A stretch of 64,000 nt of DNA from Clostridia bacterium (GTDB lineage Bacteria > Bacillota > Clostridia > Peptostreptococcales > Acidaminobacteraceae), in contig JAFGVN010000051.1 of assembly GCA_016937975.1 (NCBI GenBank), positions 1 to 64,000 on the forward strand. The letters run 5' to 3'. Of the stretch, positions 8,101-23,551 are shown one piece after another (within the stretch, counting starts at the first letter, position 1; the number at the start of each line of letters is the position of its first letter). The notes below the pieces were generated by a model. The model had not been told where the DNA came from and did no database searches. It saw only the letters and a list, made by a program, of their open reading frames with translations. Both the position numbers and the translations under genes were made by a program.

Positions 8101-8130
8101 TAGCTATTTATAGAAAGGAAAGGTGCTATC

Positions 8131-8925: not shown

Positions 8926-11253
8926 ATGAAGAAATTTTTTGTGTTATTGTTGGCATTATGTTTAACAATACCATCATTCGGGGCTGTACAGATATCCGAA
9001 GAAACATTAGTCGCTAATAATAGCGATACATATGTAATTGAACATGAACTAGCACCTATGAATTTTGAAGCGTATATTGACATGTTTATTAAAGAAGGTA
9101 AATTGCCTGAAAATCCTACGCAACAACAAATTTCAGATGTGATGAAAGCAGAATTTGGCAATATGAAATTTGATGTCAAGCAATCAAAGGAAGATAAAAT
9201 TAGAATGGCAAATGCTGAAAAGGCAATTAAAGAAAAAATTAGCAATTCTACAAATTTAAACAATAGTAGTGGTAAGTCAAAAGATCTTCCGATTTTAGAA
9301 GAAAGCCAAACTCATGAAGTTATTAAAGAAGTTAAAGTTTTAGCTTTACTAATTGAATTTCCTGACTATCCACATAACTCTATAGTTCCAAACAGCCCTA
9401 AGTCTTATCATACAAATGATTTTAGTGTAGAACATTATCAAAATCTATTATTTGGTGAAGATTTATATACAACTCCTGAAGGAGTGACATCACAAACTAT
9501 GACTACATACTATGATGGTCAATCAAATGGTCACTTTAGAGTTACTGGTGATGTATTTGGTTGGTATACTGCAGAGAATCCTGCTGCGTATTACGGTTAT
9601 GATGTGAACAGCGTACGTGGTGATGACATCGCACCAAGAAATTTAGTAGTAGAAGCTTTAAATGCTGCTATAGCAGCAGGTGTTGATTTATCTGTATACG
9701 ACAATTATAATAACGCAACTTTTGAGCCAACTCCAGATGGTATTGTAGACCACTTAATGGTACTGCATGCTGGATTAGGTCAAGAAGAAGGTGGCGGCGC
9801 ATTAGGAACAGATGCTATATGGTCACATAGTTGGGATTTAAACGATGAATTAAAATCTAATATTGATGGAAATATAATCGCATCCAATTATACTATTGAG
9901 CCTGAAAATGGCGCAATTGGAGTTATGGTTCATGAATTTGCTCATGATTTAGGAATTCCAGACGATTACGATACACAATATACAGGTGATGGTGATATAG
10001 TAGAAGCTTGGTCATTGATGGCAAGCGGTTCATGGACAGGTGACGTTGGTGGCACAGAGCCGGTTGGTATTAATCCATGGGGCAGACTATATTTAGCATT
10101 TTTCCACACTGGACTAAATAATCCATGGCAAAATTACGCTTGGGTTGATTATGGTGTTACTGGAACATTAAATCTAGCTACAGCTTCATATAAAACAGAT
10201 GCTATGCAATCATTAATCATTGAGTTACCTCCACAGGAAACTAAATTACTTACACCAACAGAAGGCCAACAAACTTTCTGGGGTGGTAGTGACAGTGAAT
10301 TAGACTCTACGTTAGATTATAGTTTAACTTTAACAGAAGGTAATCAAGCAGTATTAAGTTATGATATCTGGTACGACATTGAAGAAGATTGGGATGCAGG
10401 ATTTATTCAAATCTCAGTTGATGGTAGTGAATTCCAATCCATTTCAACACCATTAACAAGAACTTTTGAGAATCCAGATGGCTATCCAACAATCATGAAT
10501 AGTTTACCTGGTTATACAGGTAGTAGCAATGGATGGCAAAAGGAAACAATTGATTTAAGCAGTTATTCTGGTGAAATTACATTAAGATTCAGATATGCAA
10601 CAGACTGGGGTACTGAAAATCCAGGTATGTTTGTTGACAACATCAACATTACAGATGGTGAAACAGTAATCTTAAATGATGGCGCTGAAGATGGATTCGC
10701 AAACTTTGTAAATAATGGTTGGGAACAAAATACAGGTTCTTCATATGCTAGCCATAGATATGTTGCAGAATGGCGTTCTCACTTAAATGCTGATGCTGGT
10801 TTACTATCAGTAGGTGGAGCAAACTTTGATTATAATCAAGGTATGTTATTATGGTATGTAAATGATGCATATGCAGAAAACTGGGTTGGTGTTCATCCTG
10901 GTTTTGGTAGAATTGGTGTTGTAGATGCTACACAATTCGTTTATATGAATCAAGGATTGGGTAATGGCAATGAATATGGTTCTACAGCTGGTTACATGCC
11001 ATTTATCCAGATGAAAGATGCAGCATTCTCAACTGACAAATCCGCTAATACTGACTTATCATATTATTCATGGGCACAAACTCCAAACTTACCTGGAAAA
11101 CATGGTAATTCACTGTTTGATGATAGTAAGTCGTATATTGATTTTAGAAATCCATTTGGTGGTTTGTTTGTTCCAAATTACGGATTACAAATTAAAGTTT
11201 TAGGTGAATCAGAAGATTACTCACAAGGTTTAATCCAAGTGAATATCAAATAG
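8926..11253 (+). CDS. Secreted M6-family (immune inhibitor A-like) metalloprotease
   Basis: A 775-residue exported zinc protease. Signal peptide at about residues 1-20 ('KKFFVLLLALCLTIPSFG'), a propeptide with a conserved 'EGKLPENP' patch to about 130, then the M6 catalytic domain. The zinc motif 'HEFAHDLGIPDD' (HExxHxxGxxD) is near residue 334, followed by 'WSLMASGSW', the Met-turn-like segment. The C-terminal 300 residues are beta-rich with two 'FVDNI / DGAED' carbohydrate-binding or MAM-like stretches. InhA-type enzymes degrade extracellular proteins. The ATG at 8926 follows GGGAGG at 8915-8920 and gives a clean signal peptide, whereas the upstream ATG at 8875 does not. It stands alone between two terminators. 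Confidence 0.93.
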   Translation: MKKFFVLLLALCLTIPSFGAVQISEETLVANNSDTYVIEHELAPMNFEAYIDMFIKEGKLPENPTQQQISDVMKAEFGNMKFDVKQSKEDKIRMANAEKAIKEKISNSTNLNNSSGKSKDLPILEESQTHEVIKEVKVLALLIEFPDYPHNSIVPNSPKSYHTNDFSVEHYQNLLFGEDLYTTPEGVTSQTMTTYYDGQSNGHFRVTGDVFGWYTAENPAAYYGYDVNSVRGDDIAPRNLVVEALNAAIAAGVDLSVYDNYNNATFEPTPDGIVDHLMVLHAGLGQEEGGGALGTDAIWSHSWDLNDELKSNIDGNIIASNYTIEPENGAIGVMVHEFAHDLGIPDDYDTQYTGDGDIVEAWSLMASGSWTGDVGGTEPVGINPWGRLYLAFFHTGLNNPWQNYAWVDYGVTGTLNLATASYKTDAMQSLIIELPPQETKLLTPTEGQQTFWGGSDSELDSTLDYSLTLTEGNQAVLSYDIWYDIEEDWDAGFIQISVDGSEFQSISTPLTRTFENPDGYPTIMNSLPGYTGSSNGWQKETIDLSSYSGEITLRFRYATDWGTENPGMFVDNINITDGETVILNDGAEDGFANFVNNGWEQNTGSSYASHRYVAEWRSHLNADAGLLSVGGANFDYNQGMLLWYVNDAYAENWVGVHPGFGRIGVVDATQFVYMNQGLGNGNEYGSTAGYMPFIQMKDAAFSTDKSANTDLSYYSWAQTPNLPGKHGNSLFDDSKSYIDFRNPFGGLFVPNYGLQIKVLGESEDYSQGLIQVNIK

Positions 11254-11287
11254 TCCTCGTTTTAGAACTCCCTTATAGTTCTAAATT

Positions 11288-11322
11288 AAAAATACCCGCA
11301 TATCTTAAATGCGGGTATTTTA
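11288..11322. terminator. Bidirectional terminator between the M6 protease and deoD
   Basis: AAAATACCCGCAT pairs with ATGCGGGTATTTT. A-run on one side and T-run on the other allow termination of both convergent genes. Confidence 0.9.
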
Positions 11323-11324
11323 TA

Positions 11325-12029
11325 TTATGCTAATTCTAAAGCAATTTCCATCATTTTAGTAAATGCAGTTTGTCTTTCTTCTGGTGTTGTCTCTTCATGT
11401 GTTAATAAGTGATCACTTACGGTTAAGATACATAATGCATTTGCACCTGCTTTTGCAGCATTCATATATAATGCAGCAGCTTCCATCTCAACTGCCAACA
11501 CACCCATATCCATCCATGGTTGCATTGCATTTTTATCAGCATTGTAGAAAATATCAGAAGATAAAATATTACCTACAGTTACATGAATATTTTTTTCATC
11601 AGCTACTTTTACAGCTTTACTTAACAAATCCCATGAAGCAATTGCTGAATATGTACCTTGGAAGTTATATTGACAGGCGTAGTTTGAGTTTGTTGATGCT
11701 CCCATACCAATAACTACATCATATAAGTCCAAATCCTTTTGCATTGCGCCACAAGAACCAATTCTAATTAAGTTTTTAACACCAAAAACGTTAATTAATT
11801 CCCATGAATAGATACCAATACTTGGCATCCCCATACCAGTTCCCATTACAGATATTTTTCTACCTTTGTATGTACCTGTGTAACCGAACATATTACGTAC
11901 TGTATTGAACTGAACAACATCCTCTAAAAATGTTTCTGCAATGAATTTTGCACGTAAAGGATCGCCAGGTAGTAATATCGTTTCCGCGATTTCTACGCCT
12001 TCTGGTTTAATATGAGCCGTACTTTTCAT
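11325..12029 (-). CDS. deoD: Purine-nucleoside phosphorylase, DeoD type
   Basis: A 234-residue enzyme that splits purine (deoxy)nucleosides with phosphate for salvage. It has the hexameric low-molecular-mass family signature throughout: 'LLPGDPLRAKFIAE' near residue 19, 'GTGMGMPSIGIYSWEL' for phosphate binding around residues 62-77, 'RIGSCGA', 'VEMEAAALYMNA' and 'TVSDHLLTHEETT' containing the catalytic Asp. Length equals that of E. coli DeoD. It is a single-gene unit with its own promoter (12066-12095) and a shared terminator. Confidence 0.97.
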   Translation of the reverse strand: MKSTAHIKPEGVEIAETILLPGDPLRAKFIAETFLEDVVQFNTVRNMFGYTGTYKGRKISVMGTGMGMPSIGIYSWELINVFGVKNLIRIGSCGAMQKDLDLYDVVIGMGASTNSNYACQYNFQGTYSAIASWDLLSKAVKVADEKNIHVTVGNILSSDIFYNADKNAMQPWMDMGVLAVEMEAAALYMNAAKAGANALCILTVSDHLLTHEETTPEERQTAFTKMMEIALELA

Positions 12030-12065
12030 TTTATTCTCTCCTTTTATACTTTAATAACTGATATG

Positions 12066-12095
12066 ATTGTATCATTAATCATTTTAACAGGACAA
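12066..12095 (-). promoter_or_regulatory. deoD promoter
   Basis: Minus-strand TTGTCC-18-TACAAT with a TG one base before the -10 (extended -10). Confidence 0.6.
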
Positions 12096-12179
12096 TAAAA
12101 CCCTTGATATTACAGGATTTTTGTGTAAAAATTACAACACATTTGATACATACCCTACATTCTGTTTCATAACCATTAT

Positions 12180-13784
12180 TTAAAGAAACATCTGATGAAC
12201 AATCACGGTTAGTGAAACAAAATAAATTAATATTGCACCATTGATTGTGTTAAAAGAAAAATCTATTGAAGCAATTTTTTCTTTTAATTCAGCCCACCTT
12301 TGAGTGAGATGGTAAACTATATAAGCAAAAAGATACATCATCCCATAAATAACTTGTTGTGATAGAACTTTTCCTATATTGTATTTCAAATTATCATGCC
12401 AGATGACGTTCATCAGAACTGGACTTAAAATTCCAATGGCAACTACAATCCCTGCCATAAAAGCAAGAGCAAACCTTTGCTCCCCTTTCAGTTTTAAGTC
12501 TATTGCCATTAATTTTTTTGAAAAAATCGCCTTAAGGATTGGAATCGTGTAAAGCATCGTCGTGAACATCAAAAAATAATAGATTGTACTTAAATTTCTC
12601 AGCATCAAATAGTCTTTCAAATTCTGTTTTAGTAAACCGGTTCCCATTATTGGGTTACCTGTTATACCTAACAAAATGATGATTATAATTATGGCAATGA
12701 ACTTTGACTGCTTATAAATTCCTTTGATGTTATGAACATTTCTTGTCTGATAGCCATCAATTAAAATTCCAATAGTAATAAAAAATAAAGCCTTCAAAAT
12801 ACCATGATTTAAAATATAGAAAATACTAATATTTTGAGAAAATTCACTTTGTGTCAAACCAAGCATAATGAGGCCGACTTGAGAAATTGTGGAATAAGAT
12901 AAAATCAGTTTAAGATCACTTTGGACAAAAGCAAATAGTCCCCCAATAATAACTGTAATGAGCCCAACTACGAAAAAAATGGATGACATGTTAATGATTG
13001 GTTCAAACATACTAGAAATTCTAATAAATAAATATACGCCTGTTTTGACAAATATGCCTGACAAAATTGCAGATACAACCGTTGGAGCACTTGCTGTACC
13101 ATGTGCCTTTGGTAACCAGCTGAAAAGCGGCATAAAAGCGGCTTTTAAACTTACACCTGTCATAAGAAAAGCAAAGGGTAATATGAGTTCTTTTGGGCTT
13201 TTATCAATGATCATGTGCTCTAGAGCTTCAAAGCTTAATACACCAAATACTTTATAGATGTAGGCTACACCCATTAAGAAGAACGCCATGCCAACCATAT
13301 TAATCATGAGATAGATCATACCATCATAAAATGATCTGCCGTCTTTTTTAAACATAATAAGAATACTAACAATAAGGGTTGCCAATTCAATAAGGAGATA
13401 AATATTAAAGAGATCTGTTGATAAAAAAACACCGTTAATAATCCCTTGCAAACTCAAGAATAAAAACACAAACAATGGATTAGAGTATTTTTTTCTCAAA
13501 CTAAAAATAAACATCATTATAAAGATTAAATTATTTAAAAGCATCAATACAAATGATAGTTGATCCATTTTTAATGTCATACCGACTGATGGCATAAAGT
13601 GAGATAAAGGCGTTAGAACATAACCACTTTGAGATATGGGCTTCCAGTAAAAAAAGATACTCATCAATAAAAGGGTTTCTAATCCAACTAATATAAATTT
13701 TATATATTTAGCTTTAAAAATATAAAAGAAGAGTCCCATTAAAATCGGTATGAAGACATAAATAAACAACGGGATGTTACTCAT
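12180..13784 (-). CDS. mrpD: Mrp antiporter subunit D, second copy
   Basis: A 534-residue, about 14-helix proton-conducting subunit related to complex I NuoM/NuoN (Proton_antipo_M). The functional Glu in 'YLLIELATL' and the Lys in 'GVSLKAAFMPLFSWLPKAH' are present, as is the 'VKTGVYLFIR' helix. It ends the second eight-gene module and overlaps mrpC by 8 bases. It is clearly homologous to, but only moderately similar to, the 546-residue copy at 16326-17966, so the duplication is not recent. No strong terminator is seen after the stop. Confidence 0.93.
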   Translation of the reverse strand: MSNIPLFIYVFIPILMGLFFYIFKAKYIKFILVGLETLLLMSIFFYWKPISQSGYVLTPLSHFMPSVGMTLKMDQLSFVLMLLNNLIFIMMFIFSLRKKYSNPLFVFLFLSLQGIINGVFLSTDLFNIYLLIELATLIVSILIMFKKDGRSFYDGMIYLMINMVGMAFFLMGVAYIYKVFGVLSFEALEHMIIDKSPKELILPFAFLMTGVSLKAAFMPLFSWLPKAHGTASAPTVVSAILSGIFVKTGVYLFIRISSMFEPIINMSSIFFVVGLITVIIGGLFAFVQSDLKLILSYSTISQVGLIMLGLTQSEFSQNISIFYILNHGILKALFFITIGILIDGYQTRNVHNIKGIYKQSKFIAIIIIIILLGITGNPIMGTGLLKQNLKDYLMLRNLSTIYYFLMFTTMLYTIPILKAIFSKKLMAIDLKLKGEQRFALAFMAGIVVAIGILSPVLMNVIWHDNLKYNIGKVLSQQVIYGMMYLFAYIVYHLTQRWAELKEKIASIDFSFNTINGAILIYFVSLTVIVHQMFL

Positions 13785-14127
13785 TCATCTCCTCCTTTGC
13801 TTGTTTCATTTTATTCCAATTTGTTGTTCCCAGTATATTATAAGCAGTAATAAACATAATTAAACTTACAGCAGTGACACTCATGCCAATTACTACTGCA
13901 GTGATCATTAAACCATGTGGAATAGGATCACTTGGAAATTCTTTAAAAGCGCCATAAATTGGAGGATTATAATCCTTATGATGAATACTAATGAAAAATA
14001 AAATAATACTTCCCTGAATAATGCCAAGACTTATAATGGACTTCAAAATATTTCTTCTTGCAATTAAGCCATACATACCAATAAAAAATAAGATTAAGGC
14101 TACATTTTCACCATTTATCCACTTCAT
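13777..14127 (-). CDS. mrpC: Mrp antiporter subunit C, second copy
   Basis: A 116-residue, three-helix membrane subunit homologous to NuoK. 'SLGIIQGSIILFFIS' and 'DPIPHGLMITAVVIGMSVTA' are the family's characteristic helices; the latter matches the other copy's 'DPLPQALMITAIVISASVTA'. The start at 14127 follows GAGG and overlaps the mrpB stop by 4 bases, so the longer frame from 14181 is rejected. Confidence 0.93.
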   Translation of the reverse strand: MKWINGENVALILFFIGMYGLIARRNILKSIISLGIIQGSIILFFISIHHKDYNPPIYGAFKEFPSDPIPHGLMITAVVIGMSVTAVSLIMFITAYNILGTTNWNKMKQAKEEMNE

Positions 14128-14516
14128 AAAGACCTCGTTTCGAAAAAAACAAATCTTAAAAAGATGATTGTTATCCCACAAGCGACTTTAATGCCTATAC
14201 TAATATTCATAAGCATTAAATAAAGAATGTTCCAATCTGGAAATTTGTTCATTGCGCCAAAGAAAATAAAGCTAAAAGGCATGAGTATAATAATTACTAA
14301 TAGTAATTTTTCCATTTTCTTAAATATATCCAATTGATAATCATAAATTGGCATCACTAAATACTTGCTAATATACACTGAAGCAAGGATAGCACCACCT
14401 TGAAATCCTCCTCCTGGAGATATATGGCCATTAATAATGATATAGCCACCAAAAACAATTAAAAATGGATAAATGATATCTAAGGATTTTGATAACAAGT
14501 CAGAATGATCATTCAT
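14124..14516 (-). CDS. mrpB: Mrp antiporter subunit B, second copy
   Basis: A 130-residue, four-helix MnhB-type subunit (MbhF in archaeal nomenclature) with the hallmark 'GHISPGGGFQGGAILAS' near residue 30. Start at the ATG at 14516 behind AGGAG; it overlaps the upstream small subunit by 8 bases. It is needed for assembly of the antiporter core. Confidence 0.93.
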   Translation of the reverse strand: MNDHSDLLSKSLDIIYPFLIVFGGYIIINGHISPGGGFQGGAILASVYISKYLVMPIYDYQLDIFKKMEKLLLVIIILMPFSFIFFGAMNKFPDWNILYLMLMNISIGIKVACGITIIFLRFVFFETRSL

Positions 14517-14775
14517 GGTAGTTCTCCTCATGGACCGATAAATAAATTACTGCAATAACACTTATAATCAGTAATAATGCTTCAAACAAAGTATCGTAAT
14601 AACGATAATTTAAATATATTGCGGTGACTAGATTTTTACTTTGAGTTTCCAAGAATCCATATTCAACAATATGGTCATACATTGGCCAGACTGTTGTAGT
14701 GGTTGCAAAGTGATTCAACCATAAAATATATCCAGTCACGGCAAATAAGACTAAGGCGATGATTTTTCTTCTCAT
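14509..14775 (-). CDS. MbhE-like small Mrp subunit, second copy
   Basis: An 88-residue, two-helix protein with the conserved segment 'SKNLVTAIYLNYRYYDTLFEALLLI'. This is equivalent to the end of long MrpA proteins (MbhE family), encoded here as a free subunit. It overlaps both neighbours (4 and 8 bases), showing tight translational coupling. Confidence 0.88.
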   Translation of the reverse strand: MRRKIIALVLFAVTGYILWLNHFATTTTVWPMYDHIVEYGFLETQSKNLVTAIYLNYRYYDTLFEALLLIISVIAVIYLSVHEENYHE

Positions 14776-15302
14776 AGAATCACGACCTTTCTTAATGTAT
14801 TCTCTGTCATATAAGCTTCAGATGAAGCATTAATAATAGCATTGGCTTTTATATTGGCTTTGTGTACATGTAGATGAATCTCCTCTTGAAAAGATTCGAT
14901 TATAACGCCAAAACGATGGTTCTCCTTTATATGATTAACCGTTGACACAGTATAAATAATCATTGGTTCTAGTCCGTTTTTTGCTGTATATTTCTCAATA
15001 TAATGAATAAAGGTTCCGTAATGATTATTCTTATAAATGGTGTCGTCAATATAGACTTCCGGTACATGAATATAGATAACAAACAAACGATACTTTTGAA
15101 ATGCGACGATATACAACACCGTTGCCATGGTACTGCCGATAACAGCTTCAGCTATGGCTACATCTGGTGCACCATAAAGTAAGTAAACAAATGCCAAAGT
15201 CATTGAAAACACACCTAAATAGATTATGGCATTTCTTAATTTCATTGTTTGTAATGAAATCAAAGCCAATAAGATTAAGATAAGGAGTGCTACCTCTTTC
15301 AT
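14772..15302 (-). CDS. MbhD-like (DUF4040) Mrp subunit with soluble C-terminal extension, second copy
   Basis: A 176-residue protein. The first about 85 residues form three helices of the MbhD/DUF4040 family with 'YGAPDVAIAEAVIGSTMATVLYI', equal to a C-terminal piece of MrpA. The last about 90 residues are a soluble domain of unknown role that is shared, in diverged form, with the other copy (both 176 residues). It is coupled by 4-base overlaps on both sides. Confidence 0.88.
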   Translation of the reverse strand: MKEVALLILILLALISLQTMKLRNAIIYLGVFSMTLAFVYLLYGAPDVAIAEAVIGSTMATVLYIVAFQKYRLFVIYIHVPEVYIDDTIYKNNHYGTFIHYIEKYTAKNGLEPMIIYTVSTVNHIKENHRFGVIIESFQEEIHLHVHKANIKANAIINASSEAYMTENTLRKVVIL

Positions 15303-15589
15303 ATAAGATCCTTTCTCACTTTGTAACCACTCTGATAAGCTGAGCGCACAATAATATGTGTCGTTAAGGGATTAATGATTAAAATGATGAAAAATATCAA
15401 GATTAATTTCATGGTAAAAAATGAAATTCCATGTTTAAACATCAAACCAATTAGAATAGTTATATCCCCAATAATATCTATTTTTGCAGAAATTAAAATT
15501 CTCGTATAAAAATTCTTATATTTATAGGTCCCATAAAGACCTACCGCCATAAAAATTAATCCCATTGAAATTAAAAGAACAGTCATCAT
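15299..15589 (-). CDS. mrpG: Mrp antiporter subunit G, second copy
   Basis: A 96-residue, three-helix PhaG_MnhG_YufB family protein ('MGLIFMAVGLYGTYKYKNFYTRI' start region and 'INPLTTHIIVRSAY'). Four-base overlaps join it to mrpF and the DUF4040 gene. It is part of the antiporter membrane complex. Confidence 0.92.
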   Translation of the reverse strand: MMTVLLISMGLIFMAVGLYGTYKYKNFYTRILISAKIDIIGDITILIGLMFKHGISFFTMKLILIFFIILIINPLTTHIIVRSAYQSGYKVRKDLI

Positions 15590-15837
15590 AATCGACCTCT
15601 TTTCTGAATGTAAGTTGCTATAAAAACTGTCCCAATAAATCCCAAAACAGCATATGTAATGGCAATATCGAGTATTAAACTCGATTGAAAATAAGATGCT
15701 AATAACACAATTAAAATCAATAACTTAGCACTTACTAAATTAAATCCAAGCAATCGATCCCAAATACTTGGACCTATAATCACTCTTAAAATGCTCAATG
15801 TGATAAAAAAAACAACTATAACTATAAAAAGACTCAT
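15586..15837 (-). CDS. mrpF: Mrp antiporter subunit F, second copy
   Basis: An 83-residue, three-helix MrpF/PhaF protein with the family segment 'GPSIWDRLLGFNLVSAK' and 'DIAITYAVLGFIGTVFIA'. Overlaps mrpE and mrpG by 4 bases each. Confidence 0.93.
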   Translation of the reverse strand: MSLFIVIVVFFITLSILRVIIGPSIWDRLLGFNLVSAKLLILIVLLASYFQSSLILDIAITYAVLGFIGTVFIATYIQKRGRL

Positions 15838-16316
15838 GTTACCAATTTCTCCTCTATTTTACTGGCAATCTGTGTTTTAGGATCCAAATCTTCATTGGGT
15901 TTAGCATCGATCCACAAAACTTTTATGGTTTTATAATCCATGTCTATTGTAATGGTCCCTGGTGTTAATGTAATTGAATTTGCTAAAATTGCTCTCTTAA
16001 ATGAATCCTCAAGATCTGTTTCAAATTCTACTATACCCATGTGAATGTCACCTTTTAAGGTCATCCATAAAGTTTTAAAGCCAGCAATATAAATCTCTTT
16101 TAAAAGAAATATGAGATATTTTCCTGATTTCAGAAATGAAAATTTGTACTTATGATGAAAAGGCATACCAATTAAGAACTTGTCTGTATAATATAGAGCT
16201 AATGCACTGAGACAAAGACTCATCATTATTTTATCAATTGCTACAGACTCAAATAAAATCACACCGATTAAGGTATATATCAATAACCATTTTATATATT
16301 GCTTATGTTTTTTCAC
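15834..16316 (-). CDS. mrpE: Mrp antiporter subunit E, second copy
   Basis: A 160-residue MNHE-family subunit with two N-terminal helices and a cytosolic ferredoxin-like C-terminal domain. The diagnostic 'ILANSITLTPGTITIDMD' is at about residues 108-125. It starts 9 bases after the stop of the first-copy mrpD, so the two modules are almost certainly one transcript. Confidence 0.93.
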   Translation of the reverse strand: MKKHKQYIKWLLIYTLIGVILFESVAIDKIMMSLCLSALALYYTDKFLIGMPFHHKYKFSFLKSGKYLIFLLKEIYIAGFKTLWMTLKGDIHMGIVEFETDLEDSFKRAILANSITLTPGTITIDMDYKTIKVLWIDAKPNEDLDPKTQIASKIEEKLVT

Positions 16317-16325
16317 TTAACACTC

Positions 16326-17966
16326 CTAAATATAATTCAATACAGCCGCTAAAAAGATGAGCAAGTAAATCACCGCATCTTGAAATTTCACTCTAAAATG
16401 TCTAATGGTATGATAGAACTTTGCTTCCGGTTTAATAATTAGTTTAAAAATGATATATGCCAGCATTGCCATAATGGAAAATTCAGCCACAGATGAGATT
16501 GTAAACATACTGTGTTGAATTTTATCATATCCTTTCGCTAGTCCGTAATCCCATGATATCCGGCCAATTTTTAACAATGTTTTTGACCACGACAGTTCAA
16601 AGAAGAAACTCATAACAGTAATTGAGGTTAAAAAACCGATTCCAATAATCCCGCCTATATCCAATGGATTTTTCTTTTGTTTTTTGCCAATAAATATGGT
16701 TGAAAACTTAATAAAAGAAATAACCGTACCTAAACCAATCAATTGAAATAAAATTTGATGGAAATAGTTTATCCCACTGTATTTCATCATGGATTTGCTT
16801 ATGAATCCAATGAAAAATGGAGCACCTGTTATAGATAGAATTGCAATGATCATCATGATTGATAAGAACGGATGGGTTTTAAAAATACCATGAATTTCTG
16901 TCACTCTTCTATAGCCATAATTGTTTATAATTAAACCAGCACCAAAGAATAAAATACTTTTAAAAAGAAAATGATTAAAGAGATGTAAATAAGCCCCAAT
17001 ATAGCCAATTTCAGATCCATAAGCCAAACTCATAATAATAAGACCAATTTGGGAAATGGTATGAAAAGCTAAAATCCCCTTTATATCCTTCTGTGATACA
17101 GCAAATATTATTCCTGATAATGCCGTGAAGAAACCTAAATAGAAAAGAAAATCACTGACATCAAACACATTAAAAATCGGTAGAATTCTGAGCAAACCAT
17201 AAATTCCTGTTTTCACCAATAAACCTGATAGCAATGCTGAAATATATGCTGGTGCTGCTGTATGTGCTCTTGGCAACCATTCATAAACTGGAAAAAGAGC
17301 AGCTTTAATGCACATTGCAATAAAAATAGTTGCAAAACTCACATGAAGAATTGAAAAGGAATGACTCGATATAAAAGATTGTTCAATGATGCTTTGGCTG
17401 ATTGTCATATTTAATGTGCCTGTCTTGAAGTACAGCAACATAATACCAAAGAAGTAAATTACCATACCTAGACTGTTGAAAAGCAAATAGTATAATCCCG
17501 CTTTAACAGAGATACCATCCTTTTTATATAATATTAAAATAGCAGATATAATTGTAATTAATTCAAGGAGAACGAAGAAAGTAAAGAAGTCATTCACTTG
17601 TAAAAAGGCCATGAAGCTACCTTCCAAGAACATGAGAAAAAATAAGAACTTAAAGTCTTTTCCCTTATGATTCCAAGCATAAATAATCACGCTCCACCAC
17701 ATTAAGACAGCCATCATCATAAATAATAGAGAGAGATGATCCATTTTTAGTTCTACTGCAATCCTCTGATTATAACCCCCTAATACATATGTAAAAGGTC
17801 CATGCTCTTCTAATAAGAACCATAACTTTATAACCATTGTTGTCAAAGCAAATTGGATTGGAAAAACTAAATAGTTGATGATTTTCTTATTAAACAAATA
17901 AATCAATATTGAGATCACAATAGGTGCAAATATTAGACCTTGAGAAATTATTATCATTGTATTCAT
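16326..17966 (-). CDS. mrpD: Mrp antiporter subunit D, first copy
   Basis: A 546-residue multi-helix proton-translocating subunit (Proton_antipo_M). The essential Glu in 'FFVLLELITIISAILILYKK' and the Lys in 'AMCIKAALFPVYEWLPRAH' are conserved. It is the last gene of the first module, overlaps mrpC by 4 bases and is followed 9 bases later by the second module's mrpE. Confidence 0.94.
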   Translation of the reverse strand: MNTMIIISQGLIFAPIVISILIYLFNKKIINYLVFPIQFALTTMVIKLWFLLEEHGPFTYVLGGYNQRIAVELKMDHLSLLFMMMAVLMWWSVIIYAWNHKGKDFKFLFFLMFLEGSFMAFLQVNDFFTFFVLLELITIISAILILYKKDGISVKAGLYYLLFNSLGMVIYFFGIMLLYFKTGTLNMTISQSIIEQSFISSHSFSILHVSFATIFIAMCIKAALFPVYEWLPRAHTAAPAYISALLSGLLVKTGIYGLLRILPIFNVFDVSDFLFYLGFFTALSGIIFAVSQKDIKGILAFHTISQIGLIIMSLAYGSEIGYIGAYLHLFNHFLFKSILFFGAGLIINNYGYRRVTEIHGIFKTHPFLSIMMIIAILSITGAPFFIGFISKSMMKYSGINYFHQILFQLIGLGTVISFIKFSTIFIGKKQKKNPLDIGGIIGIGFLTSITVMSFFFELSWSKTLLKIGRISWDYGLAKGYDKIQHSMFTISSVAEFSIMAMLAYIIFKLIIKPEAKFYHTIRHFRVKFQDAVIYLLIFLAAVLNYI

Positions 17967-18301
17967 TGACTTTCATCCTTACTTATCAAAGTTTCCCAAT
18001 TAGAAGTACCATAATAATGAAAAATTTTAACAAAAAACATTAACGAAAGTGCTGTAACAGACGCACTGATTACAATAGCCGTAATCATCAATGCTTGAGG
18101 TAACGGATCCACAGGAACTAAATTCTCCGAAGTTAAAATTGGAATATCATACCCCGTTGTCCCAGCAATAACGATAAATAATAGAATGACTGCTGCTTGT
18201 AAAATATTGAAGCAAATAATCGTCTTAATAATGTTCTTACTTGTGGCGATGCCATAAAGAGCTACTCCTATAACAGCAATTGCAATAATTACATCAATCA
18301 T
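17963..18301 (-). CDS. mrpC: Mrp antiporter subunit C, first copy
   Basis: A 112-residue NuoK-like three-helix subunit. 'CFNILQAAVILLFIVIAG' and 'DPLPQALMITAIVISASVTALSL' are the conserved helices. It starts on the last base of the mrpB stop (TAATG-type junction). Confidence 0.94.
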   Translation of the reverse strand: MIDVIIAIAVIGVALYGIATSKNIIKTIICFNILQAAVILLFIVIAGTTGYDIPILTSENLVPVDPLPQALMITAIVISASVTALSLMFFVKIFHYYGTSNWETLISKDESQ

Positions 18302-18708
18302 TAGCTATTTCCCTCCTCAATAAAGACCACAAATAAAGATACAAATCCAATGGCTACTTTTAGACCAATTACTAAATTTAAAAGTACTAAAAATAATCTT
18401 CTGATTTCATATGCATAAGTTAAATCAAACCAGTTTGTAAAGAAATATCCTCGTGTAAAGTAGGAGATTAAGACCATCACAGGTAAGAAAATAAACAAAT
18501 ACTTATCTATTTTCAACATTTTTGAAAGGGAAAAAGGATGCTGACCTTTTATAAAATAGTACAATAAATAACTCGTAGCAATAATGACACCACCTTGGAA
18601 GCCGCCGCCTACTGAAATATCTCCATTTAATATAATATATATCCCAAACATCAGCAAGAAAGGTAAAATGATTCTACTGATGGTTATCAATATCTTTGAA
18701 AAAATCAT
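18301..18708 (-). CDS. mrpB: Mrp antiporter subunit B, first copy
   Basis: A 135-residue MnhB-type subunit with 'GDISVGGGFQGGVIIAT' near residue 30 and four predicted helices. Part of the first antiporter module; 9 bases after the MbhE-like gene. Confidence 0.94.
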   Translation of the reverse strand: MIFSKILITISRIILPFLLMFGIYIILNGDISVGGGFQGGVIIATSYLLYYFIKGQHPFSLSKMLKIDKYLFIFLPVMVLISYFTRGYFFTNWFDLTYAYEIRRLFLVLLNLVIGLKVAIGFVSLFVVFIEEGNS

Positions 18709-18717
18709 ATGGCACCT

Positions 18718-18990
18718 CTATAGCATATCTTCATCTTTAATGGTCATAAAAGCAATTCCCGTTACAACAATCAACAAAAGAGAAGCCTCAAAAAACGAAT
18801 CAAATAATCTGTAATCTAAGTATATCGCTGTTACCAAATTCTTAGAACTGGTCTCCTCTAATCCATTTTCAACATAATAGCTTTGACTAGCCGTATTGTA
18901 TAAGGTTTCATCATAATCAAAATGCAGTAGAATCTGAATCATCAACAATGTAATAAATAAAGCAACTGCGATTTTCTTGAATCTTTTCAT
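18718..18990 (-). CDS. MbhE-like small Mrp subunit, first copy
   Basis: A 90-residue, two-helix protein. 'SSKNLVTAIYLDYRLFDSFFEA' matches the second copy's equivalent almost residue for residue and marks the MbhE family (the C-terminal tip of long MrpA). It is the most conserved small subunit between the two modules. Confidence 0.88.
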   Translation of the reverse strand: MKRFKKIAVALFITLLMIQILLHFDYDETLYNTASQSYYVENGLEETSSKNLVTAIYLDYRLFDSFFEASLLLIVVTGIAFMTIKDEDML

Positions 18991-18998
18991 AATTTCAC

Positions 18999-19529
18999 CT
19001 AATCCATTGTATCGATATCTTTTGTTCTCACAACTTTAATACTTGGGTATTTTAAAGACATCTCAAGTAATTTATTCGTCATGACATTTGACTGTTTACA
19101 GGTTAAAATATAATGTTGCATTTTGGGATGATAATTTAAAATTACATCAATGTCCTGTCTTCTAAAGACACCATAAATCCCTTTTGCTTCGTCATTAAAA
19201 ACATCCTCACTTTGAACAATTTTCAATTTCAAATTCTCAATTTGACAAAAATCATATAGAAAGTCCTTTACTTCCATATGAAAGTGCCCCTGTTGCATCA
19301 CCGTAAAGGTTGTTTGCTTAGATATCGCTATTAAAAAAATAAGTGGCATAAAAGCACTACCTACTGCAATCTCCGCCAATGCAACATCTGGTGCATGATT
19401 GAAAAAGTATAGACTCGCTGCAATCAAAGAAAAGCCTGAATACAAAACGACGAGAATCTTATTGTTTTTTTGAAGAACAATGCTTAATGTAATGAATAAA
19501 AGTAATACTAAAAAAAATGTTTTAATCAT
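18999..19529 (-). CDS. MbhD-like (DUF4040) Mrp subunit with soluble C-terminal extension, first copy
   Basis: A 176-residue protein: three helices with 'NHAPDVALAEIAVGSAFMPLIF' (DUF4040/MbhD), then a soluble domain from about residue 90. The GTG at 19544 is in frame, but GAGGGAG lies 6 bases before the ATG at 19529, and that start gives the same length as the second copy. Overlaps mrpG by 8 bases. Confidence 0.88.
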   Translation of the reverse strand: MIKTFFLVLLLFITLSIVLQKNNKILVVLYSGFSLIAASLYFFNHAPDVALAEIAVGSAFMPLIFLIAISKQTTFTVMQQGHFHMEVKDFLYDFCQIENLKLKIVQSEDVFNDEAKGIYGVFRRQDIDVILNYHPKMQHYILTCKQSNVMTNKLLEMSLKYPSIKVVRTKDIDTMD

Positions 19530-19803
19530 GTTTTTCTCCCTCACTAAAATGAGCAGCCTGAGTTAACATGTGGTTGATCACTGGTGTAGTTAATAGTAAA
19601 AACAACCAAATTACAATCAATCTTATGCCAATGCCATTAAAACCAGTCTTTAAGATGAGTCCAAAAATCAATAGCATCATCGCCATTGTGTCTATTAAAC
19701 TGCTTGTCAGTAATTTCAACATTAAAGATTTGAATCTCAAAATACCGATGAGACCTGCTACAATAAAAAATAAAGCTAAAGCAATAAGTATATTAGCGAC
19801 CAT
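19522..19803 (-). CDS. mrpG: Mrp antiporter subunit G, first copy
   Basis: A 93-residue three-helix MnhG family protein ('LFFIVAGLIGILRFKSLMLKLL', 'TTPVINHMLTQAAH'). Overlaps mrpF by 11 bases. Confidence 0.92.
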   Translation of the reverse strand: MVANILIALALFFIVAGLIGILRFKSLMLKLLTSSLIDTMAMMLLIFGLILKTGFNGIGIRLIVIWLFLLLTTPVINHMLTQAAHFSEGEKHD

Positions 19804-20050
19804 ACTTTCCTCCTAAAATAAACCTGATCATTAAAATCAATGACAGAAATCCAACAATGGAATATGTAATCGCAATATCCATCGCTAAAATTCTATTGGT
19901 CTCAACTGCATAAATGATGACAAGCATGATAATCAGTGCCGCCACCAAATTAAGCGACAGTAATCTTTCCCACAAGTTTTGACTTTTCACGAGTTTTAGC
20001 ATCATAACGAATAAACAGCATCCTATAATATACATTGCAAAATTAAGCAT
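19793..20050 (-). CDS. mrpF: Mrp antiporter subunit F, first copy
   Basis: An 85-residue MrpF family membrane protein with 'QNLWERLLSLNLVAALIIM' and 'DIAITYSIVGFLSLILM'. Overlaps mrpE by 8 bases. Confidence 0.93.
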   Translation of the reverse strand: MLNFAMYIIGCCLFVMMLKLVKSQNLWERLLSLNLVAALIIMLVIIYAVETNRILAMDIAITYSIVGFLSLILMIRFILGGKYGR

Positions 20051-20525
20051 TCAAACTCCTTGTAAATGGCATTTCATACTGGCTAATTTCTTTCCTTATG
20101 CTTTCCAAATCCTTTTTTTCTTCTATCATACAAGCCACAGTAATTAAATCTTCCTCTAAAGAAATTGTTACGGTTCCTGGTGTTAAAGTAATTGCATTGG
20201 CAATTAATGTATTAATCAAATCATCCTTTTGAGACAATTTATAAACTAAAACATCATAATAACTTTTGTTCTTTATAATTTTTAGAAGATGCAAAAAAGA
20301 TGCTTTGATGATTCCATGCACTACAACACCAAAAAACCAAATAAATCTTAACACTATTTTTATATCTGTAAATAAATGTGTTTGTTTAAATACGACTTTC
20401 TCTGTTAAAAATAAGATACTTAAACTGATCAACAACCCATAAATTAACAGTTTTAAAGACCATTCGCCATATAAGATAAACCAAAATACCAATAAGCTTA
20501 CCATCAATACAAAACGTTTAATCAT
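20043..20525 (-). CDS. mrpE: Mrp antiporter subunit E, first copy
   Basis: A 160-residue MNHE family protein with 'LIANAITLTPGTVTISLEED' near residue 108. It is the first gene of the 16-gene Mrp unit, with AGGAGAA before the ATG. The operon promoter must lie in the about 80 bases between 20526 and the UPF0251 terminator, but no clear -35/-10 pair is visible, which may mean that an activator is needed. Confidence 0.94.
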   Translation of the reverse strand: MIKRFVLMVSLLVFWFILYGEWSLKLLIYGLLISLSILFLTEKVVFKQTHLFTDIKIVLRFIWFFGVVVHGIIKASFLHLLKIIKNKSYYDVLVYKLSQKDDLINTLIANAITLTPGTVTISLEEDLITVACMIEEKKDLESIRKEISQYEMPFTRSLNA

Positions 20526-20602
20526 AAATATATTCTCCTCGTCATAAACATACCCAAATAATGGTAGTTCTAAAACAAGATTCCCCTTCTCGTAGAAGTT
20601 TC

Positions 20603-20636
20603 AAAAAAACAAAAACAGCAGGAAAATCCTACTGTT
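20603..20636 (-). terminator. Terminator of the UPF0251 gene
   Basis: Minus-strand ACAGTAGGA / TCCTGCTGT stem (one G-T pair) followed by TTTTGTTTTTTT. The stop codon is inside the stem. It insulates the Mrp operon from upstream transcription. Confidence 0.85.
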
Positions 20637-21078
20637 TCTTTTCACCAACTTGGCAACAATTCTTTTTACAAAACTCATCATCTTTTACACAGCGAACATT
20701 AGACGAACTACAACTTGGACAAATCCGATCGCCTTCATAATTCAGAGTAAACTTTTCTTTACAATCCAAACATTCATACTGACACAATTTAACGGTATAA
20801 TTGCCACCACCAATAATGATGCCCTTACCTTCTGTCAAAGCCAAAGCGACTTTTTTTCTTGCACTATCAATAATCAGCTGGAAGGTTTGTCTTGATACCG
20901 ACATTTTTTCAGCACATTCAGCCTGGTTCAAACCAATAATATCCTTTAAACGCATGGCTTCCAATTCTTCAACTTGCAATTGTATTGTATCTAAATCTTT
21001 TTTGGGAATACCTGCAGGTTTAAATACAGTGTGTTCCGGTAAAAATTCAATTTTTCTCCACTTCTTCGGTCTTGGCAT
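20629..21078 (-). CDS. UPF0251 (DUF134) DNA-binding protein with C-terminal zinc ribbon
   Basis: A 149-residue protein. The family motif 'MPRPKKWRKIEFLPE' opens it, followed by 'LEAMRLKDIIGLNQAECAEKMSVSRQTF', a sigma-70 region-4-like helix-turn-helix at about 38-85. The C-terminus adds two CxxC knuckles ('CLDCKEKF', 'CPSCSSS') and a Cys-rich tail ('CKKNCC'), suggesting zinc or another metal. UPF0251 genes often accompany NifX/B-like proteins and permeases; here the partner is the split permease. The ATG at 21078 follows GGGAGG; the ORF start at 21090 does not. Confidence 0.88.
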   Translation of the reverse strand: MPRPKKWRKIEFLPEHTVFKPAGIPKKDLDTIQLQVEELEAMRLKDIIGLNQAECAEKMSVSRQTFQLIIDSARKKVALALTEGKGIIIGGGNYTVKLCQYECLDCKEKFTLNYEGDRICPSCSSSNVRCVKDDEFCKKNCCQVGEKKQ

Positions 21079-21085
21079 AATTCCT

Positions 21086-21104
21086 CCCAATTCTACTAAT
21101 TGGG
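21086..21104 (-). promoter_or_regulatory. Leader hairpin or operator overlapping the UPF0251 ribosome binding site
   Basis: CCCAATT-N5-AATTGGG inverted repeat. Its downstream arm shares three G's with the GGGAGG ribosome binding site. It could hide the RBS in RNA, or serve as an operator for the gene's own HTH product. Confidence 0.45.
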
Positions 21105-21107
21105 TAT

Positions 21108-21135
21108 ATTATACCATAAATCAATTAAAAACCAA
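21108..21135 (-). promoter_or_regulatory. UPF0251 promoter
   Basis: Minus-strand TTGGTT-16-TATAAT with TGG directly before the -10 (extended -10). Confidence 0.6.
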
Positions 21136-21173
21136 TTAATTTCAACGGTTTTCTTATTTATCCTCAAAAAAGG

Positions 21174-21845
21174 TCATGTCGTAATTGCACCAACAGGACA
21201 AATACTCATTAACTGTTCATTGAAGTTATCCTCTTCATGTATTACAATTTTATCTTTTAAGACACCAAAAACATCTGGATATTTTCGAACACAAGCCTTG
21301 CACATAATACATCTCTTATAATCAATTTTTAAACCTTGATCTTGTGGTAATTCCACCATTTTTAGTATTTTCTCCATTAGAATTGCCATGACCAAAAATG
21401 CTGCTACAGTTAAAATCCATCGTATGACCATATAGCTCACGCCCATAAACTTAATCTCATTGATTAACATAGGAACCTTAACGACTGCCCAAGCACTTAA
21501 AATAATGACAACATTTCTAATGGATGCACCCTTTTTTAGTAAGGTTTTGCATACTGGAAATGCAGCGTATATCGGACCCGCAGATAACGAACCTATTAAA
21601 AAGGAAATTAGGTATCCTTTCACGCCTGATCCATCTCCAAAATACTTCATAATAGTAGTAGTAGGTACCCAAACTTGAAGAAGTGAGGTCAGAATAAACA
21701 CTGCTGGAAGAATTTGGAGCATTTCAATAAAATAATATTTGCTTGTTTTCAAAGCCAGACCTAGCATCTCAAAGTTATATAATCCTAAAATCATATAACC
21801 TAATAAAGCTAAACTTAAAATTTTATTTTTTGATAGCCATTTCAT
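21174..21845 (-). CDS. Permease second half with C-terminal ferredoxin-like domain
   Basis: A 223-residue protein: about four to five transmembrane helices at residues 8-165, including the family segment 'IGSLSAGPIYAAFPVCKTLLKKG', then a cytosolic single [4Fe-4S] ferredoxin-like domain ('CIMCKAC' and 'SICPVGAI'). The membrane part resembles one half of the ArsP/DUF318-type permeases. It overlaps the first-half gene by 4 bases. The substrate is unknown; the iron-sulfur tail suggests redox-controlled or metal(loid) export, which is inference. Confidence 0.72.
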   Translation of the reverse strand: MKWLSKNKILSLALLGYMILGLYNFEMLGLALKTSKYYFIEMLQILPAVFILTSLLQVWVPTTTIMKYFGDGSGVKGYLISFLIGSLSAGPIYAAFPVCKTLLKKGASIRNVVIILSAWAVVKVPMLINEIKFMGVSYMVIRWILTVAAFLVMAILMEKILKMVELPQDQGLKIDYKRCIMCKACVRKYPDVFGVLKDKIVIHEEDNFNEQLMSICPVGAITT

Positions 21846-22321
21846 CTCATCACCTGCCCTACTATAACTGCAATACCTATAGCAAATCCAAAGCTAAGAC
21901 TATTTCTAACAATGGCAAACTTCTTACCAAAAGTCTTTGCTTCCAAAGGAAATGTTACAAATCCAACCATGGTTAAAGTCGTTAAAAAAGCTGTAAGTGT
22001 CATAATTCCTGCACCACTGTCTCTCAGTGAACCGATTAAAGGAAATGCAACAAAGGCTGGAATTAAAGTAATTGTTCCTATTAAGGCTGAAATAATAACC
22101 GCAAATATGCCTGACTCTCCTCCAATTGTTTTTTCTATAATCTCAGGGGAAATTAGGGTTAAAACCAATCCAATAAGCAACAAAACACCTACTATATCCG
22201 ATAACATACTGCCCATCATTTTTTTTGCACCACCAAAAGCTTTTTTTGTTTTTAAAGAATCTTTCTTCAAAGAAACCAACGCCGCACCAACAGCCATCAA
22301 AATTAATATTATTGTACTCAT
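21842..22321 (-). CDS. Permease first half
   Basis: A 159-residue protein with four predicted helices. 'SALIGTITLIPAFVAFPLIGSLRDSGAG' is the counterpart of the 'AGPIYAAFP' repeat in the next gene, so the two proteins together make one ArsP-like permease, probably as a heterodimer of inverted or tandem halves. The start at 22321 follows AAAGGATG; the frame from 22345 is less likely. Four-base overlap couples the pair. Confidence 0.72.
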   Translation of the reverse strand: MSTIILILMAVGAALVSLKKDSLKTKKAFGGAKKMMGSMLSDIVGVLLLIGLVLTLISPEIIEKTIGGESGIFAVIISALIGTITLIPAFVAFPLIGSLRDSGAGIMTLTAFLTTLTMVGFVTFPLEAKTFGKKFAIVRNSLSFGFAIGIAVIVGQVMR

Positions 22322-22359
22322 ATAATCATCCTTTCTTATGTTCATAATAATGGATGATT

Positions 22360-22387
22360 AAAAAAAATAGTGTTACTTAAGTAACAC
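22360..22387 (-). terminator. Minus-strand terminator, transcript of origin unclear
   Basis: An 18-bp perfect palindrome (GTGTTACTT / AAGTAACAC) followed on the minus strand by TATTTTTTTT. The only gene upstream in this direction (EamA) already has its own terminator at 22628-22656. Confidence 0.75.
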
Positions 22388-22627
22388 TTATTATAAAAAC
22401 TTCCTTCTAATGGCTAAATATGTTTTTTTTTGGGCTAAATATACCTGAATCTTGAAAATTCGACAAAAATCGAGTATCATAAGAGTAAGAATAGATGATG
22501 TTGCACTACCAACAAAATCCTTCGGAAAACTGAATAACAACTGAATAGAAAACTGAATAGAAAATTGAATAATCAAAAGAATATTCAAGAATTGGTCCGC
22601 AACCCTTTTCTTGAGTATTTTTTTATA
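22388..22627. other. Non-coding or remnant stretch with 12-bp tandem repeats, flanked by two terminators
   Basis: Part of a 333-base gap. It holds about four tandem copies of ACTGAATAGAAA-like units near 22530-22575. A 79-codon minus frame covers it, but it is low-complexity, has no clear ribosome binding site and matches nothing I know. Being bracketed by two same-direction terminators, it could encode a small RNA or be a decayed gene. Confidence 0.35.
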
Positions 22628-22656
22628 CAAAAAAATACACTTATAAAAGTGTATTT
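22628..22656 (-). terminator. Terminator of the EamA transporter gene
   Basis: AAATACACTT-ATAA-AAGTGTATTT stem with a T7 run on the minus strand; it begins in the stop codon. Confidence 0.88.
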
Positions 22657-23512
22657 ACTCATCTTTCAAAATGGTTATTACTAAAGCAAGCAATAATAAT
22701 ACTGCTCCAATAACACCCTTAAATAATATTTTCTCGTGTAAAATAATTGCCGCCATTATAAGTGTAAATAATGGCTCTCCAAGAAGAATCAAACCTACAC
22801 TTTCTGGTGTCGCATGCTGTTGTGCTTTTATTTGTGCATAATTGGTAAGTGCTGTCCCCAAAACACCAATAACAAGAATTGGCAAAAATGCTGCTTTTAG
22901 ACCCTCGAGGTTTATACCTTCAAAGATGATCATAAAAACAGCCGAAATAATGGTAACAACAAGCATTTGCATCCATGCCAATTGTGATTCATCTATTTGC
23001 TTTGCAGATCGATCCAAAATTAAAATATAAACGGTATAACTAAAGGCGCACAAAAGTGCCAATGCATCTCCTCTGTTAAAACCGCCACCATTCATACCTG
23101 AAATTAAATATAATCCAACTAAAGATAACAAAACACCAAAGGTAATCCATTTATTGGGTAAGTGTCGATGAAGTATCGTTGTAACAATAGGTACAAACAG
23201 GACACTCATTGCAACAAAAAAACCAGACTTTGAAGCTGATGTAAAATATAATGACGCTATCGCAAGTGTAAATGCTAAAAAGGTTAAGATCCCAAGAATA
23301 CCACCATATTTCCAATCACTTTTACTGATTTTTTGTTTCTTGTTTCTCTGCATGAAAGTCAATACAATTAATGCAATGGCATATCTACCAAACATCAGAT
23401 GAAATACAGGTAATGTTTCAGTATATAGTTTAATAATAATGGTGCTCATGGCCCATCCTGACGCCGTTATGAATAATAACAGGTCAGCTTTTCTCTTTTG
23501 TGATATGTTCAT
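22655..23512 (-). CDS. EamA-family (DMT superfamily) transporter
   Basis: A 285-residue inner-membrane protein with ten predicted helices in two EamA repeats (about residues 8-140 and 150-283). 'FGRYAIALIVLTFMQR' in repeat one and 'EPLFTLIMAAIILHEKI' in repeat two are the family's signature positions. Members export amino acids or other metabolites; the substrate cannot be told. It lies 39 bases after the MTHFR-like gene with an extended -10 (TGGTATAAT, 23530-23538) between, so it may be transcribed both alone and as read-through under the SAM riboswitch. Confidence 0.92.
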   Translation of the reverse strand: MNISQKRKADLLLFITASGWAMSTIIIKLYTETLPVFHLMFGRYAIALIVLTFMQRNKKQKISKSDWKYGGILGILTFLAFTLAIASLYFTSASKSGFFVAMSVLFVPIVTTILHRHLPNKWITFGVLLSLVGLYLISGMNGGGFNRGDALALLCAFSYTVYILILDRSAKQIDESQLAWMQMLVVTIISAVFMIIFEGINLEGLKAAFLPILVIGVLGTALTNYAQIKAQQHATPESVGLILLGEPLFTLIMAAIILHEKILFKGVIGAVLLLLALVITILKDE

Positions 23513-23551
23513 TTTCCACCTCGCGACCTATTATACCACAAGGTGTCCAGC

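Follow-up and report, generated by a model that had tools for sequence, protein, structure and literature searches.

Two adjacent eight-gene modules predicted to encode MrpA-less Mrp-type antiporters of different clades in a clostridial genome

Mrp antiporters that lack MrpA are usually encoded by single gene modules. Here we analyze a 64,000-nucleotide stretch of a Clostridia bacterium genome (GenBank assembly GCA_016937975.1, contig JAFGVN010000051.1, positions 1 to 64,000; hereafter the window) which carries two such modules in a row. The draft genome amounts to 4.03 Mb in 153 contigs and is 98.66% complete with 4.62% contamination. Sixteen intact open reading frames (ORFs) on the minus strand, from position 20525 down to 12180, make up two complete consecutive eight-gene modules, each in the order E-F-G-MbhD-MbhE-B-C-D, which we take to be the gene order of the Mbh membrane arm. 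Module 2 (16326–20525) is followed by module 1 (12180–16316). As shown below, module 1 belongs to one clade (clade A, hence module A) and module 2 to another (clade B, hence module B). On balance, and with modest confidence, we interpret the locus as a pair of complete Group 3 (MrpA-less) cation/proton antiporters from different ancient clades which have been joined and probably form one transcription unit.

All genes described here lie on the minus strand. Module 2 begins with a 160-residue MrpE/MbhA-like protein (20043–20525; PF01899, 71.2 bits) whose best solved match is MbhA of MBH. It is followed by an 85-residue MrpF/MbhB-like protein with Asn at the position of MrpF D35 (19793–20050; PF04066, 33.2 bits) and a 93-residue MrpG/MbhC-like protein (19522–19803; PF03334, 60.5 bits), for which the best solved match, a weak one, is MrpG of Anoxybacillus flavithermus. 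The next gene encodes a long MbhD, corresponding to part of the C-terminal region of MrpA, with 176 residues from the ATG at 19529 (18999–19529); a 181-residue form starting at GTG 19544 scores 50.6 bits against PF13244. The module continues with MbhE (90 residues, 18718–18990), an MrpB/MbhF-like protein (135 residues, 18301–18708; PF04039, 72.8 bits), an MrpC/MbhG-like protein (112 residues, 17963–18301; PF00420, 70.6 bits) and an MrpD/MbhH-like protein (546 residues, 16326–17966; PF00361, 171.7 bits) whose best solved match is MbhH of MBH. After a junction of 9 nt (16317–16325), module 1 opens from a GTG start with a 160-residue MrpE/MbhA-like protein (15834–16316; PF01899, 79.6 bits), then an 83-residue MrpF/MbhB-like protein again carrying Asn at the D35 position (15586–15837; PF04066, 52.5 bits), a 96-residue MrpG/MbhC-like protein (15299–15589; PF03334, 63 bits) and a long MbhD of 176 residues (14772–15302; PF13244, 56.6 bits). 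MbhE (88 residues, 14509–14775), an MrpB/MbhF-like protein (135 residues, 14124–14531; PF04039, 64.6 bits), an MrpC/MbhG-like protein (116 residues from its ATG, 13777–14127; PF00420, 68.8 bits in a scan that started at 14136) and an MrpD/MbhH-like protein (534 residues, 12180–13784; PF00361, 159.4 bits) complete the module. The last of these is diverged around transmembrane helices (TMH) 12–13 and has an MBS subunit as its best solved match.

Seven of the eight subunits in each module (E, F, G, MbhD, B, C and D) thus score above the Pfam cut-off. MbhE required additional evidence. Module 2 MbhE reaches 24.2 bits against PF20501 (cut-off 27) and module 1 MbhE has no Pfam match, while both weakly match NCBIfam models for MrpA or MrpB with every score under the curated cut-offs. 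The two MbhE proteins can be aligned and are 43% identical, and when solved structures were searched with a profile built from 14 family MbhE proteins, it matched both MBH MbhE and the MrpA C terminus. Across the eight subunit pairs, identity between the modules ranges from 23 to 43%, far above shuffled sequence (z 9–43). The preliminary description of this locus had reported the same gene order in both modules, E proteins of 160 residues each and a spacing of 9 bases, all of which are confirmed by the ORFs together with the Pfam, NCBIfam and family-profile matches; its equal MbhD lengths of 176 residues hold if module 2 MbhD starts at ATG 19529 and fail if it starts at GTG 19544. In both clades, MbhD of the long-MbhD family has about 100 extra C-terminal residues, predicted to form a small α/β domain. 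Models of this domain have a β-α layout in both modules, with a predicted local distance difference test (pLDDT) score of 78.9 for module 2 and 76.7 for module 1. A Foldseek search with it returned nothing at E <0.05, and a periplasmic-binding-like identity (FutA1, E 0.12) was set aside as too weak a match to serve as evidence.

Judged from sequence, either module taken by itself is an ordinary Mrp of Group 3 (the MrpA-less group), with E, F, G, B, C and D plus the C-terminal part of MrpA split into MbhD and MbhE. Assignment to Group 1 or 2, which have a full-length MrpA, does not apply. A search of the draft genome with PF00361 (Proton_antipo_M) returned four genes, the two D genes of the window and two on contig C95, and no full-length MrpA was found in that genome, the four frames being of 467–613 residues. 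This agrees with the preliminary description, which had noted that both modules lack the N-terminal half of MrpA and had considered that a full mrpA gene elsewhere might complete them; no such gene was found in the draft genome. The C95 locus (L005, contig C95:33000-51000 of the window genome G000, 1705–12214) encodes 49-kDa, 30-kDa, 20-kDa and NADH-dehydrogenase-1-type subunits and a pyridine-nucleotide oxidoreductase with Fe-S motifs, along with its own E-F-G-MbhD-(MbhE-B)-C set and two large antiporter subunits. By eye, no CxxC pairs are visible in its 49-kDa-type subunit, which gives the complex the look of the Mbx/Mbs type, and presumably it is of that type and not a hydrogenase. With its own membrane arm, the C95 complex does not complete the window modules. 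No redox-arm subunits were recognized among the ORFs of window positions 9000–24000, where eight flanking proteins and deoD were assigned to families, so the modules do not qualify as an Mbh/Mbs/Mbx respiratory complex, in which the redox arm is encoded alongside the membrane arm. The earlier statement that no hydrogenase or other peripheral arm is nearby thus stands; the genome does encode a peripheral-arm complex, on contig C95 and with its own antiporter subunits.

To place each module, long-MbhD loci of relatives were annotated with profiles built from the window subunits. In the D tree, module 1 D groups with 11 relatives (clade A; Shimodaira-Hasegawa-like approximate likelihood ratio test, SH-aLRT, 100), and module 2 D falls into a second clade (clade B) that includes the modules of two same-genus genomes, among others. 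The same A/B split appears in a tree of the seven other subunits together and in a tree of all eight, and in none of the three are the window modules each other's closest relatives. Taken subunit by subunit, all eight proteins of module 1 are on average closer to clade A, and all eight of module 2 to clade B. An approximately unbiased (AU) test rejected the two modules as sisters (lnL difference 651, p-AU 7e-79). Module 1 lies on a long branch; the A/B split is nevertheless supported by many rows of each clade. A recent tandem duplication is therefore ruled out by the per-subunit identity, the trees and the AU test. Direct DNA repeats between the modules were also inspected as a possible trace of duplication, and, among 20 of 56 families listed, the best were just short weak matches of 38 nt at 84% and 76%. 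The preliminary description had treated the modules as copies whose duplication could be dated, and here it does not hold up: the trees put them in separate clades of modules that normally occur singly. On this phylogeny, the locus is a joining of two anciently separate module types and not a gene duplication, and neighboring modules can agree in gene order and gene lengths without having arisen by duplication.

Comparison with congeners shows which module is the resident one. The same-genus genomes G001 and G002 (loci L036 and L037) carry module B in the corresponding position, flanked by the same upstream genes and by deoD, and lack module A there. In the window, module A sits between module B and deoD (11325–12029, minus strand), parts of which are 87% and 91% identical to the congeners, while the upstream genes, from the DUF134 gene (20629–21090, minus strand) outward, are 48–82% identical to those of G001 and G002. 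A PF13244 search found one Mbx-type copy plus module B in G001 and module B only in G002, with no further long-MbhD module in either genome by this profile. We therefore regard module B as the resident and module A as the extra at the locus. Module A may have arrived by transfer or rearrangement, or may have been retained here and lost in congeners. In both congeners, a second D gene comes after module B, and a repeat protein and a two-component pair separate it from deoD (L036 4255–7717, L037 4410–7726); in the D tree, the two D genes of each genome group together (supports 98 and 88). No match in the window genome qualified as an orthologue of the G001 histidine kinase beside module B; of 35 matches, the best was 41% identical over residues 260–566 of 570. 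D proteins from three same-family genomes are identical to the D proteins of Fusibacter paucivorans, Fusibacter sp. 3D3 and F. ferrireducens, and the window organism is best placed as a relative of Fusibacter.

The genome is fragmented, with 153 contigs and 4.62% contamination, and the A+B combination was met nowhere else, as might result from an assembly or binning error that merged two genomes. However, module A has syntenic sequence on both flanks, namely module B and its upstream genes on one and deoD on the other, which makes a misjoined contig unlikely, and the modules are alike in GC content (0.307 and 0.311) and in codon distance to the other window genes (0.143 and 0.149). An artefact of this kind is very improbable. 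Both codon distances are above the mean of random gene sets (0.106, standard deviation 0.018) and below the maximum (0.174), a rise that might be expected for membrane proteins. A foreign origin of module 1 alone was considered on the basis of composition and rejected, as its composition is the same as that of module 2.

The spacing of the genes bears on their expression. Within each module, neighboring genes overlap by 1–23 nt or are separated by gaps of 8–9 nt, and this close packing suggests one transcript, in line with the 16-gene unit proposed earlier. The GTG start of module 1 is preceded by a ribosome-binding-like stretch that, by eye, overlaps the stop of module 2 D, and no terminator-like site was found at the module junction. 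A terminator-like hairpin of the upstream DUF134 gene (20639–20611, minus strand) is the likely 5' limit of the unit; a similar hairpin-like sequence was seen by eye in L036 and L037. Promoter-like matches occur throughout at about chance density (73 found, 64 expected), and since a weak one falls at the junction (16316–16289), an internal promoter may exist. Overall, the 16 genes probably form a single transcription unit.

We then asked whether the residues of the ion path are retained. Both D subunits keep a Glu and four Lys aligned with MrpD E137, K219, K250, K337 and K392, of which we take K219 to be the TMH7 lysine. The key residues are those of A. flavithermus Mrp, for which PMC7419157 gives the roles of E137, K250, K337 and K392; they were mapped by alignment to solved relatives. 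Also kept in both modules are a Glu of MbhD at the position of E69 in MBH MbhD (homologous to MrpA E706), an Asp and a Glu of MbhE at the positions of MrpA D792 and E796, and the Pro residues at the MrpG P86 and MrpE P114 positions. In these respects, the canonical A. flavithermus-type ion path is present.

Three observations weigh against reading both modules as working antiporters of the familiar type. First, the MrpF D35 position is Asn in both modules, and all 14 aligned members share this Asn (N33 in module 1). PMC7419157 describes D35 as invariably conserved and its change to Leu as inactivating; changes to Asn and Glu are given there as mild in Bacillus subtilis. Second, the positions of MrpC H37 and H40 are occupied by Gly/Ala and Ile, respectively, in both modules. 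Third, many residues conserved across clade A are altered in module 1, which may therefore work differently or poorly. Because most key residues are kept while MrpF D35 and the MrpC His residues differ, both modules probably exchange cations for protons by a cation path that is not quite Bacillus-type. The aligned MrpF family (15586–15837, 19793–20050 and 12 relatives) has Asn at the Asp35 position throughout, a family-wide change in the proposed cation entry which makes the cation path directly testable. An assignment of D35 to the Asp of the WDR motif was discarded, as the solved-chain alignment puts D35 at the next residue, the Asn. All 14 aligned MrpF proteins retain an Asp at the position of MBH D59.

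Under our preferred interpretation, each module would assemble a membrane complex with a proton path through the D subunit and a path for Na+ (or K+) through the E/F/G/MbhD/MbhE part, the two being coupled at the D-C-MbhD junction. MrpA-less Mrp complexes are missing the half to which the driving force is ascribed, and PMC8415708 describes H+/Na+ coupling as open for Pyrococcus furiosus. Lacking both the MrpA half and a redox arm, each window complex would be a plain exchanger running in whichever direction the gradients of H+ and Na+ dictate, a mode of action also proposed for the stand-alone Mrp of P. furiosus. Co-transcription would deliver two exchangers together, probably differing in ion affinity, pH range or ion.

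The divergence of module 1 was quantified using clade members picked from the D tree. Module 1 departs at 97 of 451 positions conserved in clade A, compared with 11–46 of 418–441 for 11 other members. Five of its 97 departures are gaps that stem from start trimming or an end effect, which leaves 92 of 446; in the subunit alignments, module 1 E was trimmed to an internal Met (130 of 160 residues) and some G rows retain upstream frame. The end branch of module 1 is 1.1 against a median of 0.32, and no close orthologue of it was found among the relatives compared. Within module 1 D, residues 365–420 changed at 16 of 22 conserved positions and the rest at 25 of 144 (odds ratio 12.7, p 4e-7), the p value being merely descriptive since the region was picked after viewing the list and its sites are dependent. 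Other clade A members have at most two changes each in this region. The TMH12 lysine (LysTMH12) itself is kept. Among 121 D sequences, two clade B members depart as much around TMH12, namely the single-D modules L047 and L054 (7 of 14 positions in the region each). The change around TMH12 in module 1 would fit an altered partner or proton path, and also relaxed constraint.

The loss of 97 clade-conserved positions and the long end branch could mean that module 1 is heading for loss or has been repurposed without transport. Its eight frames are open and tightly packed, however, the key charged residues persist, MrpB shows little change (2 of 44 clade-conserved positions; 0–6 in others; MrpE 9 of 32, others 0–6), and over 87 widely conserved D columns module 1 departs at 14, module 2 at 11 and several clade B members at more than module 1 (up to 19), so that module 1 is not extreme there. 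We consider loss or repurposing unlikely. The earlier suggestion of a specialized paralogue survives in changed form: a module in the pair is unusually diverged, but it is not a paralogue from a duplication here.

A mixed complex would be another use for the divergent module. The A. flavithermus Mrp is described in PMC7419157 as a tightly intertwined dimer through MrpE and MrpB, and an obligate or frequent A/B heterodimer, with one protomer per module joined by these two subunits, could form if both protomers came from one transcript. The departure of module 1 from its clade, greater than in any of 11 single modules, would be in keeping with such an arrangement. Against this, the MrpE pair is just 24% and the MrpB pair just 39% identical between modules, MBH is said to be a monomer, and MrpB departures of module 1 fall within the range of others, indicating no special change at that interface. 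A heterodimer is therefore doubtful. A more specific form of it, in which the resident module pumps and the added module, altered around LysTMH12, regulates it or couples it to a second ion in an obligate hetero-complex, is the boldest reading and slightly more doubtful still.

The preliminary description had also proposed that the two D subunits assemble into one larger complex in place of the missing MrpA half, that is, that D of one module docks on the other D. Several facts would accommodate this. Two or three consecutive D genes are a recurrent feature of MrpA-less operons (15 of 79 named loci, one of which, L106, is a cut contig without other subunits, and G001 and G002), the D copies of Alkalibacterium are orthologous by position across species, and the strongest departures of module 1 D lie around LysTMH12, the end that couples to MrpA in Mrp (K248a/E167a/K392d). 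However, multi-D operons gain D alone, whereas here a whole module was added and no small subunit was lost, and the TMH12 divergence also occurs at the same size in the single-D modules L047 and L054, so it is not specific to D-D docking. We regard the proposal as quite unlikely. That neither module has lost any of its eight genes fits two complexes, or two dimer halves, better, and two co-expressed antiporters are the most economical reading. In Alkalibacterium (L099, L104, L112, L118, L121, L125 and L128), the operons hold three D genes with positions orthologous across species; several D genes per MrpA-less operon is therefore an old, retained arrangement, and these loci offer a good system for the function of extra D subunits. 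At Fusibacter-type loci (L049, L053, L056, L070, L073, L076 and L079), a trio of distant complex-I-like antiporter subunits adjoins a clade A module on the opposite strand, and in L065 such a trio, grouping with those of L049, L053 and L056, directly follows G-MbhD-MbhE-B-C.

The A+B pairing looks rare. Typing of 27 genomes, which covers relatives with fetched long-MbhD loci, gave 11 with A only, 15 with B only and one, the window genome, with both, in answer to the earlier question of single versus double modules; singles are typical. Untyped were G008 (L039, no D found) and G058 (L065, three distant D-type genes), and long-MbhD genomes such as G154, G167, G178, G181 and G212 lay outside the typing. 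Among 393 genomes of the order (149 with a PF13244 match), two MbhD genes within 5 kb occur just in the window genome and G005, among the matches listed, which reach about E 3e-15 and omit some second matches (e.g. G072 and G080). At class level the long-MbhD profile matches 55 genomes out of 391, and at phylum level 117 out of 398; in many of these the match is to the short MbhD part alone. No other genome in these samples had two matches within 10 kb on one contig; up to eight candidates per genome were scored, the samples of 393, 391 and 398 share genomes, and a tandem broken by a contig end would escape such a search. The clade A D profile picked out 79 named loci, of which 75 have one MbhD and four have none in the piece examined. 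Accordingly, no second pair of joined long-MbhD modules was seen in these samples among the matches listed or in the named loci. L116 was considered as a second tandem (D then E-F-G-MbhD on a 3,967-base contig), but clade A profiles outscore clade B for both of its parts and no C gene was detected ahead of D, so it is best read as a D gene preceding one module, a tentative call on so short a contig. Two joined complete MrpA-less modules were not found described in the accessible text of the papers searched, with few subscription papers covered (PMC8415708, PMC7419157, PMC5703873, PMC4287179, PMC10386464, PMC9568556). Taken together, the arrangement described earlier is real and apparently rare, and its anatomy was well read.

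Related systems share parts of this arrangement. The Group 3 Mrp of P. furiosus (mrpEFGBB'CD) resembles the window modules in having no MrpA and no redox arm, E-F-G first, MrpB-like genes in the middle and C-D last, and it affects pH response and Na+ use (PMC8415708). It is one module in a hyperthermophilic archaeon, whereas the window has two different-clade modules side by side with about 100 extra C-terminal residues on MbhD. The Mbh/Mbs membrane arm has homologous subunits, MbhH being the best solved match of module 2 D and an MBS subunit that of module 1 D; the window modules differ in lacking adjoining redox-arm genes, in the long MbhD and in having Asn where position 35 of MBH MrpF/MbhB is Asp. 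Single long-MbhD, MrpA-less modules (Clostridia, Carnobacteriaceae and others; among L036–L147) have the same eight genes and order, and the window modules nest within them; these loci differ in having one such module each, sometimes with extra D genes. The cyanobacterial Group 3 mrpCDCDEFGBB, as presented in PMC5703873, is likewise MrpA-less with more than one D, but repeats just C and D (plus two mrpB) and has no whole second module. G005 (L038) has two antiporter-type modules in a row on one strand, with MbhD genes 4.8 kb apart, but its second module is Mbx-like, with a short MbhD, a fused MbhE-B and two large D-type subunits. An A+B operon beside congeners with one module and a doubled D thus offers a comparison set for the number of D subunits needed and for mixed dimers.

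Elsewhere in the window, two adjacent half-permease-like genes (21174–22345; ArsP_1, the second below the cut-off) adjoin the DUF134 gene, and the first has a ferredoxin-like C-terminal domain. On the minus strand lie a cobalamin riboswitch (39603–39784) and an S-adenosylmethionine (SAM) riboswitch (24579–24677), the latter preceding a gene (23552–24472) weakly similar to methylenetetrahydrofolate reductase (MTHFR).

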